DNA of 64,000 bases from NCBI GenBank assembly GCA_026398815.1, contig JAPLSA010000026.1, positions 1-64,000 of the forward strand, written 5' to 3'. Position numbers and translations under genes: made by a program. This DNA is from Gammaproteobacteria bacterium. Its GTDB lineage: Bacteria; Pseudomonadota; Gammaproteobacteria; Nevskiales; Nevskiaceae. Below, piece after piece: positions 56,782 through 58,031 of this stretch (position 1 is its first letter; the number at the start of each line of letters is the position of its first letter). The notes under the pieces are model-generated. The model saw only the letters and a program-made list of their open reading frames with translations, did not search any database and was not told where the DNA came from.

Positions 56782-56842
56782 GACGCGAAGGTGTCCAGGA
56801 AGGTGGCCGGGATGATAGCGGGGGCCGCTGCGACCGAAGGCG

Positions 56843-56848
56843 TACAAT
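56843..56848 (+). promoter_or_regulatory. -10 element of rnpB
   Basis: TACAAT 7 bases before the predicted RNA start GGGAG at 56856. No clear -35 element is seen in the GC-rich sequence upstream. Confidence 0.6.
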
Positions 56849-56855
56849 CCGCGCC

Positions 56856-57170
56856 GGGAGTCGGCCAGACAACCGCTGCCACCTCACGGTGGGGGAGGAA
56901 AGTCCGGGCTCCGCAGGACGATGTGCCAGCTAACGGCTGGGCGGCGCAAGCCGACGGAAAGTGCAACAGAAAGATACCGCCGATGGTCCCGGTGCAGATC
57001 GGGAATCAGGCAAGGGTGAAATGGTGCGGCAAGAGCGCACCGCGAGTTCAGCAATGAACCGGCACGGCAAACCCCACATGGAGCAAGGCCAAATAGGGAG
57101 GGACGCGGCAGCCGCAAGGTCGCCGCAACACGTGGTCCGCGTGCTGACCTCGTCGGGCTGGGCGTTCGGC
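56856..57170 (+). ncRNA. rnpB: RNase P RNA (type A), 3' end not recognised
   Basis: Catalytic RNA of tRNA 5' processing. Conserved blocks are clear: GGGAGTCGGCCAGACAACCG at the 5' end, GGAGGAAAGTCCGGGCTCC (P4 5' strand), TGCAACAGAAAGATACCGCC, TCAGGCAAGGGTGAAATGGT, AAGAGCGCACCGCG and GGAGCAAGGCCAAATAGGG. After about 57100 the match fades. The expected 3' block with ACAGAA-CCGGCTTA (P4 3' strand) and the complement of the 5' end (P1) is not found up to mraZ. The 3' boundary given is therefore approximate. Location before mraZ is the usual one. Confidence 0.85.
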
Positions 57171-57188
57171 TTTTCTCAAGAAAATCCA

Positions 57189-57278
57189 GAACACAAAGGC
57201 GCAGAGGTGGAAAGCAAGGACACAAAGGACGCTTTTCTTCGTGCCCTTGCTGTGGCTTTCCTTCGTGCCTTTGTGCTC
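57189..57278. repeat. Palindromic repeat (copy 2) downstream of rnpB
   Basis: Long imperfect inverted repeat: ACACAAAGGCGCAGAGG and GAAAGCAAGGACAC on one arm (57190-57224), GTGCCCTTGC and CTTTCCTTCGTGCCTTTGTG on the other (57241-57276). Built from the same ACACAAAGG/ACGCAAAG unit as the element at 16617-16716. It lies where the 3' part of rnpB is expected. Confidence 0.65.
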
Positions 57279-57467
57279 CGGAGCTTTCGACGTTCGCGTC
57301 CAGGCTTGTCGATGAAGCCGACCCGAGCGCGATCCAGTTCACACTCGTCTACCGATCGTCTGCCCGCTTCGGCCGTCCAGACCCCGGCAAATGTTGCACC
57401 GCACTTTAGGTAGTTCGCCTAAATGCTTGTTTTTGATGACTTAGATCGAACCTCCGAGAATTCTCCT
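57279..57467. other. Non-coding stretch between repeat and dcw promoter
   Basis: No gene or known RNA seen. One small hairpin TTTAGG/CCTAAA at 57405-57423 followed by a T-rich stretch at 57427-57434 could be a weak terminator. Confidence 0.4.
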
Positions 57468-57492
57468 AAGCCCTTGTCAGGACAGGCTTTTT
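57468..57492 (+). terminator. Terminator upstream of the dcw cluster
   Basis: Stem AAGCC..TGT/ACA-GGCTT with a CAGG loop, followed by TTTTT. It would end the rnpB-region transcript just before the mraZ promoter. Confidence 0.6.
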
Positions 57493-57506
57493 GGCTCTGA
57501 TCGTGC

Positions 57507-57535
57507 TTGCGGGGTGGTGTCACGTGGCATATAGT
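57507..57535 (+). promoter_or_regulatory. Promoter of the dcw cluster
   Basis: TTGCGG at 57507-57512 and TATAGT at 57530-57535, spaced 17 bases. Transcription would start near 57542, giving a leader of about 58 nt to mraZ. Confidence 0.65.
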
Positions 57536-57558
57536 GGGGTGAGTGGGGGAAAAGTGGC
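57534..57558 (+). promoter_or_regulatory. MraZ-binding GTGGG repeats
   Basis: Two GTGGGG boxes at 57534 and 57543 and a GTGGC at 57554, about 10 bases apart, next to the -10 element. MraZ of E. coli binds TGGG-type direct repeats in the same place and represses the cluster. Confidence 0.6.
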
Positions 57559-57599
57559 TGTACTTGCCTTCGCTGCACGCCATTGTGGGGCTTGATGCC

Positions 57600-58031
57600 A
57601 TGTTTGCTGGTTCCAACCGACTGACGATCGACGACAAGGGCCGCCTCGCGGTCCCTGCGCGTCTTCGCGCCCAGTTGGCGGACGAGTACGGCAAGCAGCT
57701 CACCGTGACGCTCGGGCCGGAGTGCATCGAGGTCTACCCGGCGCCGGTGTTCCGCAAGATGGCCGAGCAGATCCCGAAGATCGCCGACCGCGCCAAGCGG
57801 ATGCTGGTCCAGCGCCTGTTCCTCGGAAACGCGGTGGAGTCGGAGATCGACGGCCAGGGCCGCATCGTGGTGCCGGCGCTGCTGCGCGACATGAAGGCGC
57901 TCGGCAGCGATGTCGTGCTGGTCGGTGCCTTCGACCATTTCGAGCTGTGGTCCTACGCCCAGTGGCAGGACAACAACGCCCAGGGCCAGCAGAGCTACGC
58001 CGACGCCTTCGCGGCGCTGGCCGTGCCATGA
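57600..58031 (+). CDS. mraZ: Transcriptional regulator MraZ
   Basis: 143-residue ring-forming AbrB-fold DNA-binding protein that represses its own operon. Two SpoVT/AbrB repeats: FAGSNRLTIDDKGRLAVPARLR and NAVESEIDGQGRIVVPALLRD. The ATG at 57600 matches the family start MF; the frame is open back to 57543. First gene of the dcw cluster, with GTGGG boxes at its promoter. Confidence 0.94.
   Translation: MFAGSNRLTIDDKGRLAVPARLRAQLADEYGKQLTVTLGPECIEVYPAPVFRKMAEQIPKIADRAKRMLVQRLFLGNAVESEIDGQGRIVVPALLRDMKALGSDVVLVGAFDHFELWSYAQWQDNNAQGQQSYADAFAALAVP

Follow-up and report, generated by a model that had tools for sequence, protein, structure and literature searches.

The window analysed here is a stretch of 64,000 nucleotides at the start of contig JAPLSA010000026.1, from a gammaproteobacterium of the Nevskiaceae, and its RNase P RNA gene (rnpB) breaks off before the 3' third of the molecule. 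This raises the question of whether the organism has truly lost part of this RNA, encodes it in separate pieces, or received a truncated gene during assembly. Judging from sequence comparisons, the truncation is almost certainly an artefact of short-read metagenome assembly rather than biology, with only slight doubt remaining.

A class A RNase P RNA gene that stops after P17

The class A covariance model RF00010 matches the window at 56876-57190 with 178.3 bits, spanning model positions 20-308 of 367. When the input was limited to 56800-57146, the match extended from 56857 to 57146, scored 179.5 bits and was flagged as 3'-cut. Given that the input ending at 57146 yielded 179.5 bits versus 178.3 for the full match, no rnpB match is contributed past 57145, which is the final rnpB base. 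A P15/P18 look-alike that might have re-evolved in 57146-57190, as drawn in the cmscan alignment, was rejected because it contributes no score. The preserved 5' part (56857..57145, forward strand; model 1-264) runs from the P1 5' strand to P17, and both scores exceed the gathering score of 100, placing the gene among class A RNase P RNAs. Missing from the assembled gene are the P16 3' strand, P15/L15, P18 and the 3' strands of P4 and P1; the absence in cis of the P4 and P1 3' strands and of L15, which class A membership calls for, is attributed to loss during assembly. These results bear out the original prediction where it described a type A rnpB with a recognisable 5' part and an unrecognisable 3' third, and where it reported the P4 and P1 3' strands as absent from the region, neither of which was recovered by RF00010 run on the window and the genome. 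None of 91 columns that are invariant across 42 intact relatives is altered, either in the window's genome (G000) or in a second truncated copy from a related genome (G009, discussed below), and the 5' part therefore shows no decay.

RF00010 produced a single match in the whole 32-contig genome, and no second rnpB was found there by this model. A P4 pattern search of the same genome returned nothing beyond 3-mismatch noise, and blastn with the rnpB 3' part of a relative gave no match in G000 or G009. A dedicated covariance model of the 3' part, which scored 121.5 and 119 bits in intact relatives, reached at best 14.6 bits in G000 and G009, identifying no 3' piece in either. A genome with the protein-only RNase P HARP could in principle dispense with rnpB. 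Searches of G000 and G009 for HARP and PRORP gave no match to TIGR03875 or PF16953; the window's genome differs from HARP-based systems in lacking a HARP match and in keeping rnpA, which was found. These searches bear on a real deletion, in which rnpB would be a dying pseudogene whose role had passed to an intact second copy or to HARP or PRORP. Although the assembly is 95.6% complete and a second copy might be missing from it, no second rnpB, HARP or PRORP was found in the genome, no invariant column has been altered, and the close intact relatives have a single rnpB. We consider such a deletion highly improbable.

The break point in related genomes

Full-length rnpB is present in 14 other species of the genus (267-302 bits with RF00010), and close intact relatives carry one rnpB each, located 5' of mraZ. 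The window's gene resembles these class A RNAs in sequence and structure from the P1 5' strand to P17, in its single copy and in its position 5' of mraZ; it differs in that the assembled gene stops after P17, its 3' third having almost certainly been lost by assembly. The locus is syntenic with relatives on both flanks. In the right flank, we take the syntenic reading frame at 57600..58031 (forward strand; from the ORF list) to be mraZ, based on our own reading of the gene order mraZ-rsmH-ftsL-ftsI and of the sequence.

Pairwise alignment with the intact relative G007 revealed that about 149 nt, from the P16 3' strand to the 5' arm of the terminator, are gone at the junction GCGTGCT/GACC (57145..57146, forward strand), which is in all probability false. 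The 149-nt block lacking relative to G007 has clean edges and ends within the rnpB terminator; the segment at 57146..57168 (forward strand) aligns with the hairpin that follows the intact rnpB of G007 and is probably the 3' half of the rnpB terminator hairpin. About 100 nt 3' of its intact gene, G007 (L014; G007:C1:1510474-1510560) carries a partial second rnpB 3' end (CCGGCTTATCGGCCGACTCCCACTTATTCC).

G009 is the sole other genome of the order with such a loss inside a contig (rnpB match, 154 bits). It breaks at the same base as the window, after ...CGCGTGCT, where relatives read on into CTCCGGGTAGG (P16 3' strand, P15, L15), and it resumes further downstream, at a sequence different from the window's. 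Over most of the locus, G009 clusters, weakly, with the intact G003; therefore, simple descent fails to explain the common left breakpoint, and a shared ancestral deletion in G000 and G009 was rejected. A recombined truncated allele was suggested by a pair of sites that group G000 with G009, located 23 and 26 nt short of the break, and was discarded because both lie within the 141 nt that the two genomes share. A mobile element targeting the P17/P16 boundary was also considered: a 24-nt rnpB 3' pattern occurred in no viral contig searched, a search of the literature on rnpB as an integration site returned nothing relevant, and the k-mer result presented below makes the idea unnecessary. In G003 and G009 (loci L015 and L016), P3 of rnpB carries an inserted 35-nt hairpin (CCCGGGTTCCCATCGAGCTTGCTCGATGGG) that the other relatives lack.

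Downstream of the junction lies an unstranded palindromic intergenic repeat (57189..57278), outside rnpB. G007 has a similar but longer repeat at the same place, in the rnpB-mraZ spacer 3' of an intact rnpB; therefore, the palindrome is not the cause of the truncation. On comparative grounds, it is evidently an old spacer repeat. The G007 arrangement refutes the original prediction that the palindrome replaces the rnpB 3' end. The further proposal of an assembly chimera at the repeat was right about an assembly error and wrong about its site: the error falls within rnpB, where 141 nt of identity with G009 come to an end. Repeats are able to mislead short-read assemblers, but the break at 57145 is about 44 nt 5' of the palindrome, G009 has no palindrome yet is broken at the identical base, and G007 has such a repeat at the same place with both flanks syntenic, which leaves a chimera at the palindrome with next to no credibility. 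Similarly, the hairpin at 57468..57492 (forward strand), earlier taken for the rnpB terminator, is a conserved element 5' of mraZ that also occurs in relatives with intact rnpB. Across 57468-57560, a genus-conserved hairpin with a T-run is followed by a conserved CATATAGT and a G-rich stretch, just 5' of mraZ, and this segment looks like an mraZ control region.

A 141-nt signature shared by two genomes

The largest k in the default list of MEGAHIT is 141, and neighbouring MEGAHIT contigs overlap by k. The window and G009 are identical over exactly 141 nt to the left of the break (57005..57145, forward strand) and over 0 nt to its right; the other relatives share only 22 nt of identity up to the break. 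Identity of exactly k ending at the break, with none after it, is the pattern of a shared-k-mer artefact, and the 141-nt stretch would represent the k-mer at which the assembly graph branched. The sequence comparison of G000 and G009 covered contig ends and syntenic contigs. A comparison of every contig end in G000 and G009, 112 in total, for terminal overlaps yielded 36 pairs with exactly 141 nt in common at both termini (16 within G000, 9 within G009 and 11 between them), the same length as the stretch at rnpB. The 11 between-genome overlaps point to a single assembly graph, and with such overlaps present both within and between the genomes, both bins therefore derive from one MEGAHIT assembly. 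Exact matches between the 134.6-kb contig and 220 kb of G009 were no longer than 141 nt, a length reached once, at rnpB; the longest exact matches to G003, which comes from another project, were 146 nt (G000) and 266 nt (G009).

G009 is a metagenome-assembled genome from Lac Pavin (JAPLSB010000005.1), a project that used 150-bp paired Illumina reads, MEGAHIT 1.2.9 at default settings, IDBA-UD scaffolding and a minimum scaffold length of 1000 bp (PMC9875498). From the shared 141-mers, rather than the record name, we infer that the window's genome also comes from Lac Pavin. 16S rRNA is absent from both bins, which is compatible with short-read binning. Elsewhere in the order, partial rnpB genes (G076, G077 and G078) are all at contig ends, which suggests that metagenome assemblies often break at this conserved gene. 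In G076:C172, G077:C204, G078:C18, G072:C21 and G005:C77, the contig terminates within rnpB or at most 75 nt away from it.

The truncation most probably arose as follows. Two related species in one sample would have rnpB sequences identical over more than 141 nt, from 57005 through the 3' end. A graph at k = 141 would merge both species, so that their left contigs each end with the first shared 141-mer, at 57145, and the common rnpB 3' block would become a short, separate, unresolved node. Scaffolding, performed with IDBA-UD in the Lac Pavin paper, would then have used read pairs to link each species' left contig to its right one and dropped the shared node, with the right flank of each restarting at the first difference between the genomes. 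At a few hundred bases, the lost node would fall far under the 1000-bp cut-off and hence would never have been binned. The merged-node model accounts for the coincidence of the left breakpoints, the difference between the right ones and the lack of any shared sequence just past the break. A point against the model is that the joins carry no N, which a gap left by the scaffolder would have introduced; how the block disappeared without N, what precisely the scaffolder did and which sequence the block contained are what we infer here. The window's break resembles MEGAHIT contig breaks at shared k-mers in that it comes exactly 141 nt after the start of sequence common to the window and a co-assembled genome, and in that contig ends overlap by 141 nt. 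It differs in that later scaffolding would have joined its two sides gap-free, hiding the break inside a scaffold.

The position of the break also weighs on a real split RNase P RNA, whose 5' two thirds would be encoded here and would join in trans with a 3' third from another gene. Such an RNA would agree with the undecayed 5' part, the retained rnpA and the identical left end in a second species (G009). Nevertheless, no 3' piece was found by pattern in the window's genome or by blastn or covariance model in both genomes, and the break falls exactly 141 nt past the last difference between the co-assembled genomes, a distance to which a biological split would be blind. We therefore regard a split RNA as extremely unlikely, and we give just as little credence to a truncated or split RNase P RNA without P4 3' strand, L15 and P18 in cis, whose remaining part, absent from both assemblies, is supplied in trans. 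A real deletion would also leave the 141-nt coincidence without explanation. A very diverged insertion, a split gene or a decayed copy accompanied by a second rnpB had been among the options first offered for this locus; with no 3' piece or second rnpB found and no 5' decay, they gained no support.

Implications for rnpB and for the two genomes

The assembly reading carries a warning for metagenomics. When the rnpB genes of two species in one short-read metagenome coincide over more than k bases, both bins may show an essential RNA cut off cleanly, without a gap and as if by convergence, well inside a long contig. A check for a k-long exact match at the break and for k-long overlaps between contig ends can reveal such artefacts without recourse to reads. 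As G000 and G009 stem from one k = 141 assembly, apparent deletions in conserved genes of either genome warrant a check for the same scar. The truncation itself has no biological importance, and the living organism very likely carries one ordinary full-length class A rnpB.
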